Shown: in pieces, positions 8,611 to 61,056 of the stretch
How positions within the stretch are numbered: position 1 is the stretch's first letter
Layout of the letters: the number at the start of each line of letters is the position of its first letter
NCBI RefSeq assembly: GCF_000153105.1
Contig: NZ_CH672376.1
Span: 1,751,804-1,815,803 of the forward strand
DNA: 64,000 nt
Reading direction: 5' to 3'
From: Blastopirellula marina DSM 3645
Lineage (GTDB): Bacteria > Planctomycetota > Planctomycetia > Pirellulales > Pirellulaceae
Notes under the pieces: generated by a model
Told to the model about the DNA's origin: nothing
What the model saw: the letters and a program-made list of their open reading frames with translations, nothing else
Databases searched by the model: none
Made by a program: the position numbers and the translations under genes

Positions 8611-11040
8611 ATGAAGTCCCCTTTATCTCTCAAGCGTATCTCGCTGCTGGCCGCAGTGATCGTGGTTGGGCTGTCGCAGGCAAATCTCGCTCATGCGCAG
8701 TTGCGGTTTTTGCCGCAAGCGGCGCCGTCGCGAGGGCAGTTCTCGTTGACGGTCGACCTGCCGAAACTGAACAACGAATCGCAACAATTGCTGGTTCAGC
8801 TCGAGCAACGACTGCGTGATCGCCAGTGGCAAGAAGCGATTGAAGGCTACCGCCGCTTGGTGTCGGCGCACGGCGACGAGCTTTTCGAGGCTGATTCGTT
8901 GACGCTCCAGACCGGCGATCAATATCTGTTCTACGTTGGTTTGCGTCGTCGACTGCATACGCAGTTAGCCGAAATCGCGCGGCGTGAGCCTGAGTTGCTG
9001 ATTCCGTATCGTGATCAGACGGACATCTCGGCCAAAGCAGATTTTGCAGCTGCGATCTCCGCGCATGATCTGGGCGCTTTAGAGCAAGCGATCGAACGCT
9101 ACTTTTTGGCGAGCGATGCCGACCAAGCGCTGTTGGCGCTGGGAGACATGCGACTGGAACGCGGTGAGTTCGCCGCAGCGCGAGCCGCCTGGGAGCAGAT
9201 CGATCCGCGACTGCGGTCACCTTACGACGAGAAGTCGCTGTTGTACGCGCTGCCGGGGCAACCGCTGTGGGTCGCCGTGGACGGCGTCGATTGGAAACGA
9301 GACGAAGCGGAGATCGTCCAGTTATTGTTGCAGCCGAAGCGCCACTCGGCGCATCGCTCGGTTCCCCAGTCCGATATCCCGCTGGCCGACTTGTTGGCGC
9401 GGTTGACGCTTGCTTCGGCGCTGGAAGGAGACGTGACGCGCGCCGCGATCGAGTTGGATCTGCTGCGACGGCTTGCTCCGAAGGCGGAAGGTTGGATCGC
9501 CGGAAAGCGGCAACCTTATGACGCGGCGCTGCAAACGATTCTCGCGACGTCGCAAGGGGCGCAATATGCGCTCTCCTACGTCAATCATTGGAATACGTTC
9601 GCCGGCAGTCCGACGCGCAGCGCAATTGCCGATCATGCGCCCGACGCCAGGATGGTCGTCTGGTCGATCAAATTTCCGAAACAGGCCGCAACGATCCGCA
9701 CGCCGGGATTGACCGAAACGTCGTTGAGTGGAGAAACGCCGCTTAGTTTTTATCCGATCACCGTTGGCGATCATCTCTTTGTGAATGACGCCAAACGGCT
9801 GCGGGCTTTCCAACTGCACGACGGCTCGCCAGCTTGGCCGAGCGGCGAAACGCGTGATCGAAAAAGCGCCGACTACGGCGCGTTCCATCGCAGTACGCCT
9901 GACATCACCAACGGCTTGCATTTGGGAAACACCAATCAGTGGCAAGACCGTACTCTGGCGAAAGTGGAATCAGCAATCGGCGCACCGCGTTATACGCTTT
10001 CAGCCAAGGGACGTTTGATGGCGGCGCGGCAAGGGAACTCGCTCTCGGTCTATACCGAGCGTGCGTCGGAGTTCGCCAAGTCGGCCGAGACGTTTATCAT
10101 CGATCTGGGGGCCGAAGGGCGAATCGCGGCGATCATCCCCGCCAACGAGACAGGCGAAGATGAATGGGAGTTTGAAGGGACCGGCCTGATCGACGATGGT
10201 CGGCTGTATGTCGCGATGACCAAAAACGGCGTGCGGAGCGAATCGGCGGTCGCTTGTTACGACGCGTCGACAGCGCGGCGCATCTGGCGACGGACGATTT
10301 GCTCGACCGAGCCGTATGGCGCCGGGCTCGTCCTAGGCGACAAAGCGGGGCAACGTTCCCACAACTTGTTGACCATGGCGGACGGCGTGTTGTACTACAA
10401 CACCAATCGCGGCGCGGTCTCCGCGATCAGCGCCGCCACCGGCGAGATCCAGTGGTTAACTATCTATCCGCGCGGACCGTTGGTAGCAGGCACTTTGATT
10501 CAGGCGAATCAACAACTGCTTCGTGACTTGAATCCATGCGTCGTCACCGGAGATATGGTGATTGTGATGCCGGCGGATAGCGATCGAATCATGGCGCTCG
10601 ATGCGGCGACGGGGAAACTTCAGTGGCAAACCGTTCCCGGCGGCGTTCAAGCAGCGCATTTGCTGGGAACGACCCAAGAGGATTTGATCGTCAGCGGCGA
10701 CCAGATTTATTGGATCCGACTCGATTCGGGACGGATTCGGAGCCAGTTCCCTAATCCGCGTGATCCGCAAAATCTGCAGGCCGAAAGTCTTCCGCAGGGT
10801 TACGGACGCGGGATTCTGGGGCGTGATACAATATACTGGCCCACCTTAGAGGCGATCTACGTCCTGAAACAGCAAGTCGATCAGGACGAAAACGTAGTCG
10901 CCGCGCGAGAACCGATTGATTTGAAAGCGTTGGGGCTGACGGGAGGAAATTTGGCGATCTCGGGTGACTACCTGGTGATCGCCGGAGCGACGCAGCTGAC
11001 CGTATTGAAGAATGACGTATCCAGTGGTCCTTCTCCCTGA
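8611..11040 (+). CDS. Secreted PQQ-like beta-propeller protein
   Basis: An 809-residue exported protein. The signal peptide ([23 protein letters not shown]) is followed by a helical region of about 300 residues with TPR-like character ([40 protein letters not shown]). A C-terminal beta-propeller contains PQQ-enzyme/BamB-type repeats: [29 protein letters not shown] and [16 protein letters not shown]. No catalytic or PQQ-binding residues are evident, so a scaffold or binding role is likely. It lies 44 bases before the MoxR gene on the same strand and may be co-transcribed. Confidence 0.82.
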
Positions 11041-53606: not shown

Positions 53607-54272
53607 ATGAAGACGACGGGCAAGGGGTGCGCAAAGATCCTGATTGTTGAAGACCACCCATTAATTCGAGTTGGGCTCAGTCATCGAATTTCGACGCAGT
53701 CCGACATGCTGGTTTGTGGTGAAGCCGATAATCAGATCGAAGGGTATCGCCTGATCAGGGAAACGAATCCCGATTTGGTGATCGCCGATATTTCGCTAAA
53801 GTGCGGGAATGGAATTGAGTTAATCAAACAGATCGCTGGACCCTGTCCAAGGGTAAAGACGTTGGTTCTCTCCTGTTATTCGGAAACGCTGTACGCCGAG
53901 CGCGCACTTCGTGCCGGAGCGATGGGCTATATCAACAAGCAGGAAGCGAACGACCTTGTCGTCACCGCGATTCGCACGATTCTGAACGGCGGTCGATTTC
54001 TTAGTCCTGGCTTGACGCAAATCCTACTTCACCAGGCCGTCGCCGCCCAAACAACGGCTGCCGTTGACGCGCTGCAGCGTCTCTCGAATCGCGAACTCGA
54101 GATTTTTCAGCTGATTGGCCGTGGGATGACTTCAGGCGTGATTGCGAAACAGCTGCATCTAAGCGTGCACACAATTGAGTCCCATCGAGAGAAGATTCGT
54201 CGTAAGTTGCGGGTAAAAGGAAGAGTCCAGTTGATGCAGGAGGCGTTGAATTGGGCGATGGGGAAGCGCTAA
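53607..54272 (+). CDS. NarL/FixJ-family response regulator 2
   Basis: A 221-residue regulator: acidic pair E15-D16 (LIVEDHP), phosphoacceptor D61 in LVIADISLKCGNG, Ser in VLSCYS, Lys in YINKQE, and LuxR-type HTH with LSNRELEIFQLIGRGMTSG and LSVHTIESHREKI. Very similar to regulator 1 along the whole length. It converges with the kinase gene (22 bases between stops), its likely partner. Confidence 0.92.
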   Translation: MKTTGKGCAKILIVEDHPLIRVGLSHRISTQSDMLVCGEADNQIEGYRLIRETNPDLVIADISLKCGNGIELIKQIAGPCPRVKTLVLSCYSETLYAERALRAGAMGYINKQEANDLVVTAIRTILNGGRFLSPGLTQILLHQAVAAQTTAAVDALQRLSNRELEIFQLIGRGMTSGVIAKQLHLSVHTIESHREKIRRKLRVKGRVQLMQEALNWAMGKR

Positions 54273-54294
54273 GCTGTTGTTCACACGGAAGATG

Positions 54295-55065
54295 TCACTG
54301 TTGGGGGGTTGGGCTGCTTTGGGCGGGTCGCCAGAAGCAATGCAAAGTGGCGCCGTTGGCGTCAGATTGCAGGCTTAACTGCGCTCCAATGTTCTGCGCC
54401 CGATTCTGCATGATGGCAAGTCCGCTACCCGGAGCGCGCGAGTGAGAATCGCCGACACCGCGCCCGTTATCGCGGATAAGCAGCAGCAAGCCTTCGTCCT
54501 GTTGCGCGAGCGAGATCTCAATGCGATCACTGCCGCTATGTTTGACGCAGTTGGTTATCGCCTCTTGAGCGATTCGAAAAAGCTGAGTTGCGACATCAAT
54601 GTCGGAGGTCTCACCGCGCTGGTCCCAAGCGAAGCGACAATCCATTTGATAGAGTTGATGCGTTCGGCTCGCCAAGCCTTCCAAAGCTTGGGGCAGCAAT
54701 TCGGCGGACTCTAGCCTAGCGACCAGCCCATGCGAGATCAGCCGAACTTGTTCGACCGATTCCTTAAGTGCGTTGGCGATCTGAACAGCGATCGCCTTTA
54801 AGGATTCGTTGCGTTTCGCTTCGATCGGGTCCGCCGCTTCGGCCGCTAGAGAGTCGATCAGTCGCTGCGTCATGAATGACAGGCCAATCAATCCTGATTG
54901 CACAATATCATGCAGTTCTTGGCCGATTTGTTGACGCTCCTGCTCTAGCAGGTCGGCCAACTGCGTCCCGTCGTCGATCGAGTGGGCGGAACGGGCAAGG
55001 GGGCGATCGAACTTGTTGGGCGTCGGTTCGCCATTTGGATCAGAAGGAAAAATGGAGGCGGACAT
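54295..55065 (-). CDS. Soluble NarX-type histidine kinase (HisKA_3)
   Basis: A 256-residue kinase. The HisKA_3 box is ERQQIGQELHDIVQSGLIG with H52, and the HATPase domain has EAITNCVKHSGS, LLIRDNGRGVGD and GSGLAIMQNRAQNIGA. Ahead of it is only a 30-residue polar segment, so no sensor or membrane helix: input must come through interaction or a very short domain. ATG 55065 follows GGAAAGAG. It is encoded between regulators 2 and 3 and is the only histidine kinase in this cluster. Confidence 0.9.
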   Translation of the reverse strand: MSASIFPSDPNGEPTPNKFDRPLARSAHSIDDGTQLADLLEQERQQIGQELHDIVQSGLIGLSFMTQRLIDSLAAEAADPIEAKRNESLKAIAVQIANALKESVEQVRLISHGLVARLESAELLPQALEGLASRTHQLYQMDCRFAWDQRGETSDIDVATQLFRIAQEAITNCVKHSGSDRIEISLAQQDEGLLLLIRDNGRGVGDSHSRAPGSGLAIMQNRAQNIGAQLSLQSDANGATLHCFWRPAQSSPTPQQ

Positions 55066-55826
55066 GACTCTTTCCAGTTCAGCAGAATGATGAAACCGAT
55101 GTGAAGTCGCCGATGTGGTGGGCGCCGCCACGCAAAAATAGTGTGCGTCGCCCTGCATCGGCGGTCTTGAACCGGTCGATAATTAATGCTGAATGGCTTG
55201 GCAGTTCGGACAGTAAGTGCCGATTGGTCTTGCCGTTGGATGCGAGTTGCATCCTCTCCGTGCTCGCTCACATCTTCGAGATCATTGGTGAATTTGTGGG
55301 CGAGCTTTTTTGGGGGGTTAGATGGTGGCTAAGTTACTTTCGGTGTTGGTTGAAGGACGCTTCACCTGCGCAACAATAGCATGCGTTCAAAAGGTCGATT
55401 AATTAAAGTTGGATCGAAGCAGAGACAGGTTCTACTTTTTACGGAAAATAAGGATCTACTTAATTTGTGGTAGAATCCGCCACACGAATTGAATGAAATC
55501 TGTGACATGGAGTTAGTCTTAATCGCCCTATTTGACAGCCGAAAAAACCCTGATAACATGGCTTGAAGTGGATGCCACCATCGGGCTGTTTCATTGATCC
55601 CCAGACAGGCAGTATTTGCGGTAGCAGCCGCATTGAAAAGGGGTTTGCTTTGGATGGAAAGACAGGTAGGTCCGGCGACAATTGGGTTCCGATGTTTGAT
55701 TGATTTTTGGGAACCTTGTTGAGAAATTACTCTCCCCATAAATTTCTCAATCCCAACCGGGCTCACCATGCGTGAGAACTGAAGCGATGGTGGGGTCGTT
55801 GTGGCGCCCTATACAAGAGATTTTTC
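55066..55826. other. Intergenic region between kinase and third NarL regulator
   Basis: About 760 bases. No coding frame with family features was found; it is AT-richer than the flanks. CTCAC-N5-GTGAG at 55762-55776 is a small inverted repeat about 50 bases before the regulator. A TATACA box lies near 55810. Confidence 0.5.
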
Positions 55827-56516
55827 ATGCATCAGCGAACCGCTAAAAAGATCTTAATTGTCGACGGTCAGCCCCTTTTCCGAGATGGTATGGCGTACCA
55901 TCTCCGCGATCAGAGCGGGTTCTCGGTGTGCGGTGAAGCCAGCGGCGTCAACCAAGCGCTGGAGCTGCTTGAAAAGCAAACGCCAGATATTGCATTGATC
56001 GACATTTGTTTGGATGACGGCAACGGATTGGAGCTGATCCGCAACATCAAGTCGCGATATCCGCATATTCAAATGATGGTCGTATCGGGCTACGACGATG
56101 ACCTATACGCCGAGCGGGCACTGCGAAGCGGCGCAAGTGGATATGTGAATAAACGAGAGCCCATCGGGGTGTTGCTGGAAGGGCTGCGGAGCGTAAGTGA
56201 TGGAAAAATCTATGTGAGCGCGAAAGTTACGGAGCGGATGCTGCGAATCACCGCCCAGGGAGGCGCTCAAAACCTTTCGTCGACGCTTGGCGCTTTGACC
56301 GACCGTGAACTCGAGATATTCGAGCTGATTGGTCTCGGCATGGCGTCGCGTGAAATTGCCGAACGGCTTCACTTGAGCGGCAATACCATCGACACCTATC
56401 GGGAACGGATTAAGAAGAAGCTCGGTTTTCATTCCGGAGCGGAACTTCTTCGTCACGCCGTGCATTGGGTGCTGGAGAATGGTCGCGAATCTCCGCTTCC
56501 TTGTAACACCGTTTAA
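55827..56516 (+). CDS. NarL/FixJ-family response regulator 3 (altered acidic pocket)
   Basis: A 229-residue regulator like the two upstream. Phosphoacceptor D59 (IALIDICLDDGNG), Ser in VVSGYDDD and Lys in YVNKRE are kept, but the conserved acidic pair reads D13-G14 (LIVDGQP), losing one Mg2+ ligand. HTH: LTDRELEIFELIGLGMASREIAERLHLSG with NTIDTYRERI. Phosphorylation may be weak or altered. The C-terminus has a short extra tail (NGRESPLPCNTV). Confidence 0.92.
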   Translation: MHQRTAKKILIVDGQPLFRDGMAYHLRDQSGFSVCGEASGVNQALELLEKQTPDIALIDICLDDGNGLELIRNIKSRYPHIQMMVVSGYDDDLYAERALRSGASGYVNKREPIGVLLEGLRSVSDGKIYVSAKVTERMLRITAQGGAQNLSSTLGALTDRELEIFELIGLGMASREIAERLHLSGNTIDTYRERIKKKLGFHSGAELLRHAVHWVLENGRESPLPCNTV

Positions 56517-57207: not shown

Positions 57208-58308
57208 ATGAAAATGTACGAGATGCTTCGAGCATTCGTCGTCGGCGGCTTGGTGCTTACAGGCGCCGGGTTGCAGGCTGATGAATTCGACTCGAGCAAG
57301 ATGATGACGCAGTATTCGAACCCCGCAAGCGAATGTTGCTGTGATTTGGATTCGTGTTGTGCGAATTCTGGTTCAAGAGGAGGACATTTTCTGTTCGGCG
57401 TGGAAGCCACTTTTTTGGCGCCGATCGGAAGCACCGGCGTTCAGACGTGGGAATTCGCGGATCTTGCGAGCGGTGCGAACAACGCATTTACGACAGACAG
57501 TTCGGGTATCGAGAATCTCGTTCCCGCGCCTCGCGTGTGGCTTGGGTTCGTCAACGATTGTGGTTGGGGAGCACAGGTCCGCTACTGGGAATTGAATTCC
57601 AGCGCCACCAACACGGACCTCTTTACGCCGCAACTGATTACCGGCGACACGACCGGGTTCAACGCGGCCAATACGATCCAGATGCAAGCGCTCGACATCG
57701 AAGCGATTCGTAACTTCTGCTATTGCGACTGGAATGTGACGACGTCGTTTGGCTATCGCCATGCGTTGCGTGATTCCCAGGGTGCGATGAACTTCATCGC
57801 CCAAGTGGACCGGCCGACCATCATCGGCGGCCAGACCGCTCTGTACTCAGGCGCTTCGTCGAGCATCTCCAAGTTTGAAGGGGATGGTCTTACCTTCTCC
57901 CTCGCCGGCTCACGTCCTACTTGCTACGGAATTGATTTGTTTTGGAATATGCGAGGGTCGTGCCTGTGGGGCAACTCTTACTCGAGCTCGTCGGCAGCCG
58001 CCGCAGTTGGTACGCCGTTCGGCGGGGCGAATTTCACGACGGGCGCAGTCTCCGGCAAAAGCGATGACATTTGGATCGGTGAATTACAAGCCGGCGCCCA
58101 ATGGTCGCGATGCCTGCCCTGCAGCAATGCGAGATTCTTCCTTCGTGGTGCGTTTGAATACCAATACTGGGGTTCGACCTCTGGTCAAACGTTCGCCGAA
58201 GCCGGCGTCTTCGATTCGGGCGTCTCAGGCATGTACGTTTCGGCTTCTTCGCCGGAAAGTTCCATCAACCTGGTTGGTTTCGCACTCTCGTCTGGAATTA
58301 CTTGGTAG
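57208..58308 (+). CDS. Cysteine-rich secreted beta-barrel protein (BBP7-like)
   Basis: A 366-residue exported protein: N-terminal signal (MLRAFVVGGLVLTGAGLQA), then a cluster of cysteines (ECCCDLDSCC) and beta strands of alternating polar/hydrophobic residues ending in VGFALSSGITW with a terminal aromatic, as in outer-membrane barrels. Motifs FLFGVEATFLAPIGS and PRVWLGFVNDCGWGAQVRYW match planctomycete BBP7/Lpg1974-type outer-membrane families. Ribosome site AAAGGA is upstream of ATG 57208. Confidence 0.82.
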   Translation: MKMYEMLRAFVVGGLVLTGAGLQADEFDSSKMMTQYSNPASECCCDLDSCCANSGSRGGHFLFGVEATFLAPIGSTGVQTWEFADLASGANNAFTTDSSGIENLVPAPRVWLGFVNDCGWGAQVRYWELNSSATNTDLFTPQLITGDTTGFNAANTIQMQALDIEAIRNFCYCDWNVTTSFGYRHALRDSQGAMNFIAQVDRPTIIGGQTALYSGASSSISKFEGDGLTFSLAGSRPTCYGIDLFWNMRGSCLWGNSYSSSSAAAAVGTPFGGANFTTGAVSGKSDDIWIGELQAGAQWSRCLPCSNARFFLRGAFEYQYWGSTSGQTFAEAGVFDSGVSGMYVSASSPESSINLVGFALSSGITW

Positions 58309-58568: not shown

Positions 58569-59678
58569 ATGCTCCCGCTGTATATAGCTTTGCAACGCTT
58601 GTTGCAATACAAATCGATGTTTCTCGTCGGGGCGACGCTGCTTGCACTCGTCTCGACAGGGCGACCGGTATTCGCACAACTTGCCGAGACGGAAGATGGC
58701 TTTCAGTATTTCTCGAACGAGCCGGTTTTCGTCGCGATTGACTTTGAAGAGGCGCTGCAATCAGAGGGATCAGCGCCCTCCGTGCCGGTTGCGTTGCAAG
58801 ACCCTGTTGCGCCTGTCCCGCCCGGAGCGGATTCCAGCTACGGTGAAGAGCTGGAGGATTTCAATATCCAGTTTTTGCGATCGGCCAGCGTCCTGTTGAA
58901 ACCAGGTCAGCACCAGTTGGATGTTGGTTTGGTCTACGCCAAGAATGACTACAACGCGCCAATCAGCTTGGCTCCCAGTGGAGTCGCCCGCGTCGACTTC
59001 CGCCAGCGATCGCTGTTTGTACCACTCGCATTCCGCTATGGCATTACGGAACGGACGCAAGTTTCGATCGCGGCGCCGCTTGGCTGGGCGAATACCGAAG
59101 TTTCGTCGGTGGGATTGTTTGATCAATCGACCAGCAACGGCGGCATCGGCGATACCGAGCTAGGGGTGAACTATCACTTGCGAAAAGGGTGCTATCAGCA
59201 CCTCTCGCCCGATGTGATCCTTTCGCTGGGACTTACTTTGCCGACTGGCGATGGACAGTTTCCGTTCAACGGCCTAACCGACGCTTCATTAGGCAACGGC
59301 GTCTGGGCCACGTCGATCCAGCTCCTTTGCATCAATCGCTATGATCCGGTAATCGTCTACTACGGGGTTGGCTATCGCCATCAATACGAGGATACGATTC
59401 TCGGTCAGGACATCTTCTTTGGCGACCAGATTAGTTACAACCTGGGCGTTGGCTTTGCCGTGAACGATCGCATTACGTTCAGTACGTCCTTTTTGGGAAT
59501 CTTCCAAACAGAGACCATCTTGAACGGCGTCGGCGTGCCGGGCACTTTGCGTGAGCCGTTGCGATTGCGGTTCGCGATGACCGCCTATCGCTGTGGGAAA
59601 ATCATTGAACCGTTTGCGGAAATCGGCATGACGCCGGATGCTCCCGATTCGGTAATCGGCATTGTTTGGACCTACTAA
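58569..59678 (+). CDS. Outer-membrane transporter barrel (FapF/phenol-degradation type)
   Basis: A 369-residue exported beta-barrel. Signal segment FLVGATLLALVSTGRPVFAQ is preceded by a polar n-region; a Pro/acidic stretch follows (VPVALQDPVAPVPPGADSS), then the barrel starts RSASVLLKPGQHQLDVGLVYAKNDY, matching the Phenol_MetA_deg/FapF-like transporter family, with IAAPLGWANTEV and LGLTLPTGDGQFPF strands and terminal VIGIVWTY. ATG 58569 follows AAGGA; ATG 58503 lacks a ribosome site. It is 24 bases before a C39 peptidase gene, the FapD/FapF-like arrangement. Confidence 0.78.
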   Translation: MLPLYIALQRLLQYKSMFLVGATLLALVSTGRPVFAQLAETEDGFQYFSNEPVFVAIDFEEALQSEGSAPSVPVALQDPVAPVPPGADSSYGEELEDFNIQFLRSASVLLKPGQHQLDVGLVYAKNDYNAPISLAPSGVARVDFRQRSLFVPLAFRYGITERTQVSIAAPLGWANTEVSSVGLFDQSTSNGGIGDTELGVNYHLRKGCYQHLSPDVILSLGLTLPTGDGQFPFNGLTDASLGNGVWATSIQLLCINRYDPVIVYYGVGYRHQYEDTILGQDIFFGDQISYNLGVGFAVNDRITFSTSFLGIFQTETILNGVGVPGTLREPLRLRFAMTAYRCGKIIEPFAEIGMTPDAPDSVIGIVWTY

Positions 59679-59702
59679 GTCACCTCCAACGAAGTTGATT
59701 TG

Positions 59703-60407
59703 ATGACAGTTCTAGCCTCTTCGCTCCGCTCGACTTTGCTGCTCGGCGTGCTCGCGACGACCATGATCATAACTCGATCGGTCGTCGCTGAAACGGGTCC
59801 GCCGGTACGCGACTCGCAGCGCAGCTTTTATGCTTATGCGCGCAATTGGAGAGATATTCGCGATCAGAACATCGTCAAGCAACGACGCGACTATTCGTGC
59901 GGAGCGGCCGCTCTGGCGACCATCTCTCAATACTATTGGGGAGACGGAGTCACCGAGCAAAAGATATTGAACGTGTTAGAAGAAAATCTAACGCAAGAGC
60001 AATTGCTAGAGCGAGTGCAAAACGGCTTGGCGATTTCCGACTTGCGTATGGCCGCGGTCAAGGTTGGCTATCTTTCGACCATCGGACGCATCACGCCGGA
60101 AGAACTCACCAAGGTAAAGCTGCCGGTGATTGTCGCCCTTAAGTTGGAAGAGAGTAACCATTTTGTCGTCGTCCGCGGCGTCGTCAATGGCTGGGTCTAT
60201 CTGGCCGACCCAGCGCGCGGCAACCTGCGAATGCCGTTAGGGCAGTTCGCCGATATCTGGATAGAAAACGCCGTATTGGTCGTCGCCAAACGGGGAGAGG
60301 TTCTCTCCAAGAAATCACGACTGGGCATCACGATGGCCGAAGTTAATCGCGGCTGGCTTAACAATCAGGTATTGCGGACCGCACCAGAAAAGACGTTTAA
60401 ATACTGA
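59703..60407 (+). CDS. Exported C39-family cysteine peptidase (FapD-like)
   Basis: A 234-residue C39 peptidase with its own Sec signal (LLLGVLATTMIITRSVVA) and no ABC-transporter domain. Triad: C66 in YSCGAAALATI, H153 in SNHFVVVRG and D169 in YLADPARG. C39 domains usually cleave after double-glycine leaders while fused to exporters; here the stand-alone, exported form resembles FapD of the Pseudomonas functional-amyloid system. A candidate substrate with a glycine-type leader is encoded convergently at 60679. ATG 59703 is chosen (TTG 59700 adds one residue). Confidence 0.85.
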   Translation: MTVLASSLRSTLLLGVLATTMIITRSVVAETGPPVRDSQRSFYAYARNWRDIRDQNIVKQRRDYSCGAAALATISQYYWGDGVTEQKILNVLEENLTQEQLLERVQNGLAISDLRMAAVKVGYLSTIGRITPEELTKVKLPVIVALKLEESNHFVVVRGVVNGWVYLADPARGNLRMPLGQFADIWIENAVLVVAKRGEVLSKKSRLGITMAEVNRGWLNNQVLRTAPEKTFKY

Positions 60408-60594
60408 TCTGTAACTTTCCTGCCCGCCCTGTTGATTCACTCGCTGGCTGCGCTCGTCGGATGGTGGAGTCACCGCGTGTGCAGGGAAAGTCGCATCGCA
60501 GAAAGCTGTTCCAGCGGTCGATTCTCAACTCGCCCAGGAACAGACATGCGTCGCTGTTGATCCCCGCTGGTTCCCAAGCGTCCGCAGTCTTTAT

Positions 60595-60628
60595 AAAAAA
60601 AGCCGCCATGCGAAAAACGCAGGGCGGC
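60595..60628 (-). terminator. Rho-independent terminator of the secreted-peptide gene
   Basis: GCCGCC (60602-60607) and GGCGGC (60623-60628) with inner TGCG/CGCA and one mismatch, followed on the minus strand by seven T (complement of 60595-60601). Confidence 0.85.
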
Positions 60629-60678
60629 CTTGTTGCGAGCAGACACACAGACGCTCGTAACTTCAAGCTTTTCGTCGA

Positions 60679-61056
60679 CTAGAAGCCGTAGGCGGACGAC
60701 GATCCAAACGACGAAACGGTCGTGCCGCTGACCGGAATGCCCAAGACGAAGTTGGTGATGCTGGCGCCGTTGCTGCCGCTACCGCCAGCGACGAAGAACC
60801 CAGCGCCAAGGTAGTTAGAGCCTTGTCCGGCGGCCGGGTTGCCGTTGACATAAGCACCGCCAAGTCCCCAAGCCAACGCGAACGTACCACGAACTTTTTC
60901 GCCTTCGGCGTCGCTCATCACTTCCAGGCCGGGCAGGCCCATCGCGGAAAGAGCGCTATTGTCAATGTTGCCATTGGTGGGTTCGGCAGCTTGAACGTTG
61001 CTGGTCGCGACCATGACGAGGGCAACCACAAACAGTGAGCATACAGTGCGAATCAT
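60679..61056 (-). CDS. Sec-exported Gly/Ser-rich protein with a double-glycine-like leader
   Basis: A 125-residue protein: Sec signal (MIRTVCSLFVVALVMVATSNVQA), an N-rich segment NIDNSALSAMGLPGLE, then VMSDAEGEKVRGTFA, which aligns with double-glycine leaders (MSDxE...V.G, Gly57 at -2, Thr58 at -1). The rest is rich in Gly, Ala, Ser and Asn with aromatic residues (LAWGLGGAYVNG, LGAGFFVAGGSG, SVSSFGSSSAYGF-like end). Ribosome site GGAG precedes the ATG. It lies convergent to the C39 peptidase; the likely fate is cleavage after the leader in the periplasm and export through the barrel. The identity as a substrate is inferred. Confidence 0.72.
   Translation of the reverse strand: MIRTVCSLFVVALVMVATSNVQAAEPTNGNIDNSALSAMGLPGLEVMSDAEGEKVRGTFALAWGLGGAYVNGNPAAGQGSNYLGAGFFVAGGSGSNGASITNFVLGIPVSGTTVSSFGSSSAYGF

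Follow-up and report, generated by a model that had tools for sequence, protein, structure and literature searches.

Which secretion machinery, if any, is formed by an outer-membrane barrel, an exported peptidase and a small leader-bearing protein that are encoded side by side? The question is raised by a locus of the planctomycete Blastopirellula marina DSM 3645, located in a stretch of 64,000 nucleotides (RefSeq assembly GCF_000153105.1, contig NZ_CH672376.1, positions 1,751,804 to 1,815,803 of the forward strand) that is referred to here, at its full length, as the window. A preliminary description had read there a barrel gene of the FapF/phenol-degradation type, an exported stand-alone C39 peptidase gene 24 bases further on, and a convergent gene for a 125-residue protein with a Sec signal, a double-glycine-like leader and a Gly-rich core, and had proposed that the peptidase cuts the leader in the periplasm and the pore exports the remainder. 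All three genes are found as described, and homology, predicted fold, synteny and leader conservation lend good support to the proposed route. It is quite probable that the locus encodes a Fap-type secretion module that can do without a dedicated transporter ATPase, i.e., one in which the leader would be cut by the C39 peptidase and the core would leave through the FapF-type barrel. This reading is based on homology, predicted folds, gene order, co-occurrence and leader conservation, from which we infer the cutting, its position, export via the barrel and the contribution of a further outer-membrane protein encoded at 57208.

The barrel and the peptidase

The window barrel matches the NCBIfam FapF model with an E of 2.6e-13 and 49.6 bits which, against an equivalog cut-off of 700 bits, is a family-level match. 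A profile built from seven planctomycete barrels and searched against the sequences of the Protein Data Bank (PDB) gave four matches at E values up to 1, all of them FapF (best 5o65, E 2.8e-30). The predicted model of the barrel, calculated from 38 sequences of which 7 are non-planctomycete, has about 12 long strands (predicted local distance difference test score, pLDDT, 82.1), and FapF chains occupy ranks 1-18 of a fold search of the PDB with this model. By family match and predicted fold, the barrel is a FapF homologue, as had been supposed. Its N-terminus consists of a signal peptide and a Pro-rich segment that is predicted to be probably disordered. Passages of PMC6173800 describe a coiled coil in the segment before the barrel of Pseudomonas FapF, whereas none is predicted in the planctomycete module: from residue 28 to residue 114, where its local confidence is mostly low, the model is free of helices of at least four residues.

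The peptidase is recognised by Pfam C39 (E 1.3e-19) and also by NCBIfam FapD (E 3.9e-25, 88.4 bits against an equivalog cut-off of 330), which places it in the family but not in the equivalog; both the FapD and the FapF families named in the preliminary description are matched, each below its equivalog cut-off. If the more likely ATG at 59703 is taken as the start, its open reading frame (ORF) begins 24 bases past the barrel stop. All 27 aligned peptidases share the catalytic Gln, Cys, His and Asp, and the predicted model (pLDDT 88.5) matches the folds of PCAT1, ComA and the double-glycine protease 6mpz, a structure that holds the protease with a leader peptide. The gene is unique in its genome (sole match at E 0.001). 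On sequence and modelled fold, its product is an exported, FapD-like, stand-alone C39 peptidase of the double-glycine protease type. The FilB and FilC models of the Acinetobacter Fil system (C39 peptidase and barrel, respectively) match the window peptidase (E 6.4e-23) and, weakly, the barrel (E 0.011), in both cases far below the cut-offs.

Leader and core of the putative substrate

The putative substrate starts with a charged segment, a hydrophobic core and an A-x-A-like end, read from its sequence as a Sec signal, and continues with a leader that ends with a conserved SDxEGxxVRG pattern. The protein has no match in Pfam and NCBIfam and is, at E 0.001, the sole match of the leader profile in its own genome, which is the outcome of the genome scan for the leader segment proposed earlier. 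Its core of 68 residues contains 16 Gly, 10 Ser, 9 Ala and 5 Asn (59% Gly/Ala/Ser/Asn), and Lys, Arg, Asp, Glu and Cys are all absent from it.

The preliminary description had made its case depend on leader residues being conserved in homologues, and they are. Over 132 between-locus pairs of 18 proteins from 8 loci, the window included, the last 22 leader residues have a mean identity of 40% against 20% for the cores, with shuffled cores at 19%. A leader that is strongly conserved next to cores that are free to change is the pattern that a processing enzyme would impose. When the Gly is counted as position -1, it is present in 18 of the 18 proteins, preceded by R/S at -2, V/I at -3, Gly/Ala at -6, E/Q/A/K at -7 and S/T at -10. 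Profile alignment of a wider set of 52 leader proteins finds this Gly kept in 50 and Ala in 2; the two latter proteins (in L109 and L110) are a natural test of Gly stringency. Double-glycine leaders share a register with E at -8, L at -7, V/I/L at -4 and G at -2, then G/A at -1, and the leaders of class II bacteriocins read E-L-x-x-I-x-G-G. The planctomycete leader fits the double-glycine register, but with G/A instead of L at -7 and with a variable residue after the Gly; owing to this variability, the cut is predicted either after the Gly or one residue later. The cores of the 18 proteins are 57-106 residues long, 16 of them are without Cys, and some are 14-18% charged.

Conservation among planctomycetes

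The neighbourhood is conserved in relatives. The relative loci number 33, and 7 of these contributed rows to the profiles. In 32 of the 33, the barrel gene stands directly 5' of the peptidase gene and on the same strand, the exception (L025) ending at a contig edge. A leader protein is likewise present in 32 of the 33, with a total of 51 leader proteins and 1 to 6 per locus having any. The largest sets around one peptidase are 6 leader proteins in L023 (genome G010) and 8 on contig C35 of G303. One locus (L021:8773-10597, G045) has a tandem pair of peptidase genes beside a single barrel.

Peptidase and leader also go together at the level of whole genomes. In a class sample of 397 genomes, drawn evenly out of a larger group, the peptidase profile matches 30, of which 28 are stand-alone after two matches the size of ATP-binding cassette (ABC) transporters (G319, G412) are dropped. 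A profile of signal plus leader matches 28 genomes, 27 of them in common with the stand-alone peptidase. Both proteins are found in 27 genomes, the peptidase only in 1, the leader only in 1 and neither in 368, i.e., a leader match occurs in 1 of the 369 genomes without a stand-alone peptidase. Without the five genomes that supplied rows of both profiles (G000, G001, G004, G045, G049), these numbers become 22, 1, 1 and 368. The exceptions are G357, which carries a weaker, real-looking leader protein in its own locus (L112), and G330, with a partial match. In a set of 60 genomes, the own genome included, 12 have a peptidase match, and 8 of these are stand-alone, G020, G034, G035 and G056 having been dropped as ABC-transporter-sized; the substrate search of the same 60 genomes finds 5 matches, all within the 8 and on the same contig as the peptidase. 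Synteny and genome co-occurrence rule out a chance neighbourhood. Two genomes of the same genus as the window (G002, G003) have neither a peptidase nor a leader match, which makes the module patchy within the genus.

A fourth gene

The locus had been presented as a minimal set of three genes. The three stand, but a fourth conserved gene, that of the 57208 outer-membrane protein, had been missed. A homologue of it is found in 24 of the 33 relative loci. The protein has a Cys-rich N-terminus and is Legionella_OMP-like: the homologue in L020 matches PF05150 with an E of 1.2e-4, below the cut-off, and the window protein has no match in Pfam and NCBIfam. Copies of the locus type (E<1e-130) occur in 9 of 9 module-bearing genomes searched, 8 of which supplied profile rows, and the four genomes without the module that were searched hold distant paralogues only (4 of 4, E 1e-12 to 1e-35). 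By this homology and distribution, the gene is the fourth member of the module.

Layout of the locus

Table 1. Features of the module, in window coordinates (position 1 is the first nucleotide of the window).
Feature	Position	Strand	Basis or remark
Outer-membrane protein gene	57208..58308	+	Homology to relative loci
FapF-type barrel gene	58569..59678	+	ORF list, family match; ATG at 58569, stop ends 59678
Stand-alone C39 peptidase gene	59700..60407	+	TTG 59700; ATG 59703 more likely start
Peptidase catalytic residues	Q61, C67, H154, D170		Counted from 59700
Substrate precursor gene, 125 residues, convergent	60679..61056	-	Leader-profile match
Sec signal peptide of substrate, about residues 1-23	60988..61056	-	Read by eye
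Double-glycine-type leader, about residues 24-57, ending LSAMGLPGLEVMSDAEGEKVRG	60886..60987	-	Alignments, per-position conservation
Predicted mature cargo, 68 residues	60682..60885	-	Composition
Intrinsic-terminator-like hairpin and U run, 3' of substrate gene	60595..60631	-	Folding

The stretch of 66 bases that holds the putative terminator of the substrate gene folds at -25.4 kcal/mol (z -2.73), and 2 of 200 shuffles are equally or more stable. Upstream of the module, positions 53607-56516 encode two LuxR/NarL-type response regulators and a histidine kinase, which are possible regulators. They were rejected as parts of the module itself: in 7 loci compared, the kinase has no match and the regulator at 55827 has one weak match (E 3.3e-5), the 53607 regulator lying outside this comparison.

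Related loci in other phyla

A search started from one peptidase sequence retrieved no relatives, whereas the alignment of 27 peptidases gave at least 555. Among the best 80 of these, 43 non-planctomycete loci were taken from L149-L193, leaving out the planctomycete L154 and L161, and 39 of the 43 hold a FapF-type barrel by profile. Small Sec-type proteins with a leader, their signal peptides identified by visual inspection or a rough rule, are encoded beside the peptidase in many of these loci. Methylocaldum has three copies with the leader MTETQLAAVEGG near the C39/barrel pair, and the corresponding leaders are LSNAELDGIQGG in Granulosicoccus, LLSDAELEGIRGG in Methylomirabilota, LTDPEMAEIRGG in Nitrospirae and LDNEEMKNTQG in Helicobacter.

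A leader matrix trained on 18 planctomycete and 9 FapE leaders only, with a threshold score of 8, was applied to the Sec-like ORFs of these loci. The threshold is reached by 28 of the 129 ORFs that lie no more than 3 kb from the peptidase, as compared with 2 of the 121 at greater distance (p 2.9e-7), and by 0.9% of shuffled sequences. Matrix leaders are found in 23 of the 43 loci. Among the 28 near ORFs, one (L189) is scored out of register and another (L186) is of doubtful status. The two far ORFs differ from each other, the one in L190 resembling a real leader and the one in L165 resembling chance. The matrix also misses leaders that look real by eye in Helicobacter (L187, L188, L191), Methyloglobulus (L159) and Paucimonas (L176). 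In L162, the FapE model aligns with residues 11-60 of the Nitrospirae cargo (E 3e-4), a segment made up of signal, leader and the next 11 residues.

Two further observations concern the range of cargos. UmoA-family proteins (L176:7088-7612, L178:2146-2679 and L181:316-930; NCBIfam E 1e-14 to 5e-8, below the cut-off) adjoin a C39/FapF-type pair and carry a leader, MMSDQKLDEIRGA in Pseudomonas, so that UmoA-like proteins may be C39-processed exports. In L151, a lipoprotein-like C39 peptidase (8935-10113) is adjacent to a small leader-like protein (ENMKNFTGA) and the locus has no barrel by profile, a case of a leader with the peptidase alone.

The leader in Fap itself

A FapE gene is present in 42 of 59 Pseudomonas genomes and also in one (a Paucimonas) of the 41 genomes that hold the non-planctomycete loci. 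The reading of motifs covered 14 of the 42 FapE-bearing Pseudomonas genomes (operons L217-L230). In every one of the 14 operons, the FapE signal peptide is directly followed by P-x-E-[LIM]-x-D-x-E-L-[AS]-x-L-R-G-R, and in all 14 FapA contains an internal E-L-[SNA]-D-x-[DE]-[FI]-A-x-[VI]-[AST]-[ST]-G. Neither motif occurs in 523 reversed frames, and no leader was seen by eye in the first 75 residues of FapB and FapC. All 14 operons come from one genus, and descent therefore accounts for part of this motif conservation. The internal segment of FapA, in the Pseudomonas operons and in L196, resembles a second C39 site.

FapD is periplasmic and its catalytic Cys is required for FapC secretion, according to passages of PMC5557850, yet its target was called unknown in the parts concerned of that paper in 2017 and of PMC6173800 in 2018, and the Fap proteins were said in the former to be without canonical C39 sequences. 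Passages of the same two papers report complete N-terminal processing for FapE alone and discuss its GG/GA motifs; an ELAxLRG site is not mentioned in their passages on FapE processing. The mass spectra of PMC5557850 contain no peptide from about the first 70 residues of FapE, in agreement with processing though not specifically with a cut near residue 37. The presence of such a leader in all 14 operons makes FapE the predicted substrate of FapD. With rather less assurance than for the planctomycete module, we lean towards a wider class of secretion systems that spans phyla, in which cargos would carry a tandem address (Sec signal plus double-glycine-type leader) to be recognised on the periplasmic side by a stand-alone C39 peptidase working in conjunction with a FapF-type pore. 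The branches of this class would be Fap, the Neisseria nap island described below and the planctomycete module, and FapE, cut at ELAxLRG, and possibly FapA would be the natural substrates of FapD.

Comparison with known systems

The pore and the peptidase of the planctomycete module are homologous to those of Pseudomonas fapABCDEF, and FapE has a Sec signal and a leader in the same register as the planctomycete cargos. The two systems differ in that the planctomycete module lacks the fapABCDEF order, carries the leader directly on small, diverse cargos and has an extra outer-membrane protein. The FapC model NF058558 is silent in four module-bearing planctomycetes (G000, the own genome, G001, G049 and G106) and positive in the controls G446 and G494, and no FapC-type repeats were seen by eye. 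In NCBIfam, neither the substrate nor the 57208 protein matches FapA, FapB or FapE; no genome-wide search of the own genome for these three was made. The silence of the FapC model indicates that the planctomycete module is not Fap, which it would resemble in its pore and peptidase steps, and the expectation of a reduced or novel version of it was right in kind, the module having a lineage of its own and the fourth gene in most relative loci.

Other systems share parts of this architecture. PCAT/ComA-type bacteriocin ABC exporters have the same leader register, and their C39 domain has the same fold as the window peptidase. This domain is cytoplasmic and part of the exporter, whereas the planctomycete peptidase is separate, exported and without a transporter, and its cargo has a Sec signal before the leader. 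A published relative is the nap island of Neisseria, reported in 2025, which likewise unites a C39 peptidase (NapP), a FapF homologue (NapF) and double-glycine-type precursors (the GG peptides NapA-C) in one locus, and for which passages of PMC11798529 propose periplasmic cutting. The same paper suggests the holin-like NapH for inner-membrane passage, and the term 'signal peptide' is absent from its main text. The mature nap peptides are short and cationic, predicted at 16-36 residues with a GG site, as opposed to the longer, uncharged window core; nap is proteobacterial and carries napI and napR genes.

In 2013, Fap operons had been reported from Proteobacteria alone, with FapD and FapF belonging to larger families (passages of PMC3792158), and co-located fapD and fapF homologues were noted in five further phyla in 2018 (passages of PMC6173800). 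With these and nap already in print, the parts list is not new. As far as searches of the open-licence literature show, novelty lies in the planctomycete branch, which has a fourth gene, in the tandem address of Sec signal plus leader with a relaxed final residue, in the breadth of the class and in the link to FapE; the papers listed by these searches include the Fap work and the Neisseria nap paper, and none among them deals with such a planctomycete system.

A proposed route and its alternatives

In the proposed route, the substrate precursor would cross the inner membrane by Sec and lose its signal peptide, so that its double-glycine-type leader would become accessible in the periplasm. There the exported C39 peptidase would bind the leader through its S-D-x-E-[GA]-x-x-V-x-G register and cut at the Gly or one residue later, and the freed, uncharged, Gly-rich core would then exit unfolded through the FapF-type barrel, probably assisted at the surface by the 57208 outer-membrane protein. 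The cargo may serve as a matrix or fibre, as an adhesin or as a bacteriocin-like peptide.

Several observations weigh against this route. Barrel and peptidase are nearly always found together, so the barrel could read the leader instead. Where classical leaders have a Gly or Ala after the conserved Gly, the 52 leaders have any of 10 different residues (Thr, Gln and Lys being the commonest), and Ala replaces the Gly in two leader proteins that end with VRA (L109:11065-11559 and L110:5442-5954). The L111 locus is without a leader protein, its contig extending 0.6 kb past the peptidase and the leaders lying on other contigs of the genome. The 57208-type gene is absent from 9 of the 33 relative loci, and 20 of the 43 non-planctomycete loci have no ORF within 3 kb at a matrix score of 8 or more. 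The COG4313 uptake channel 4rl8, at ranks 19-20 of the barrel fold search, is close to the FapF fold. Lastly, the Fisher p of 1.4e-39 for the co-occurrence in the 397 genomes ignores shared ancestry.

The alternatives concern the cargo or the machinery. That the module is a reduced functional-amyloid system, with cores that form surface fibres as FapC does, is a tentative possibility that we consider unlikely. The pore and peptidase families shared with Fap, the uncharged core rich in Gly, Ala, Ser and Asn and the presence of up to 6 leader proteins per locus would all suit it, but the FapC model and the search for FapC-type repeats speak against it, as does the divergence of the cores, which have shuffled-level identity and in part a substantial charge, unlike a single family of fibre subunits; moreover, the leader of Fap sits on FapE and not at the start of FapB or FapC. 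Rather unlikely, too, is a role of the cargos as bacteriocin-like or signalling peptides released from the cell, on the model put forward for Neisseria nap, instead of structural proteins. Class II bacteriocins have leaders of this type, and the gammaproteobacterial L160 protein matches Bacteriocin_IIc below the cut-off (E 0.0062) at residues 33-56, which are its leader and the next 8 residues. The fast divergence of the cores, the several leader proteins of some loci and the company of Nap peptides, a C39 peptidase and a FapF homologue (passages of PMC11798529) are in keeping with such a role. It is countered by the planctomycete cores, longer than the predicted Nap peptides and mostly without Cys, and by the 57208 protein, which has no place in it; no immunity-like gene is seen among the window ORFs, a negative obtained without a dedicated search.

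As for the machinery, the free variation of the residue after the Gly could mean that the leader is an uncut docking or chaperone site for the peptidase or the barrel, and some C39-like domains are indeed inactive and only bind cargo (passages of PMC5557850). The intact catalytic residues of all 27 peptidases and the need for the FapD catalytic Cys in secretion, described in the same passages, make this improbable. The least credible alternative, which we hold to be very improbable, is that the barrel serves the uptake of small molecules, as a channel of the COG4313 type, and is just a neighbour of the peptidase. It could draw on the Pfam Phenol_MetA_deg match, weak and below the cut-off (E 0.0024), and on 4rl8 being the next fold after FapF, but the barrel profile matches FapF exclusively in the PDB, the gene order is fixed in nearly all relative loci, and 39 of the 43 non-planctomycete loci, found via the peptidase alone, also hold a barrel. 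A plain phenol-type channel, as the best reading of the barrel, is ruled out by the profile and fold searches of the PDB.

Significance

The secretion module with periplasmic cutting and pore export would provide planctomycetes with a candidate export route for many diverse cargos. These cargos show which leader accompanies such peptidases, and the same register stands at the start of mature FapE; the question of the FapD target is thereby reduced to a one-residue experiment. The combination of a Sec signal and a leader would further serve as a marker for secreted proteins that no family model names.

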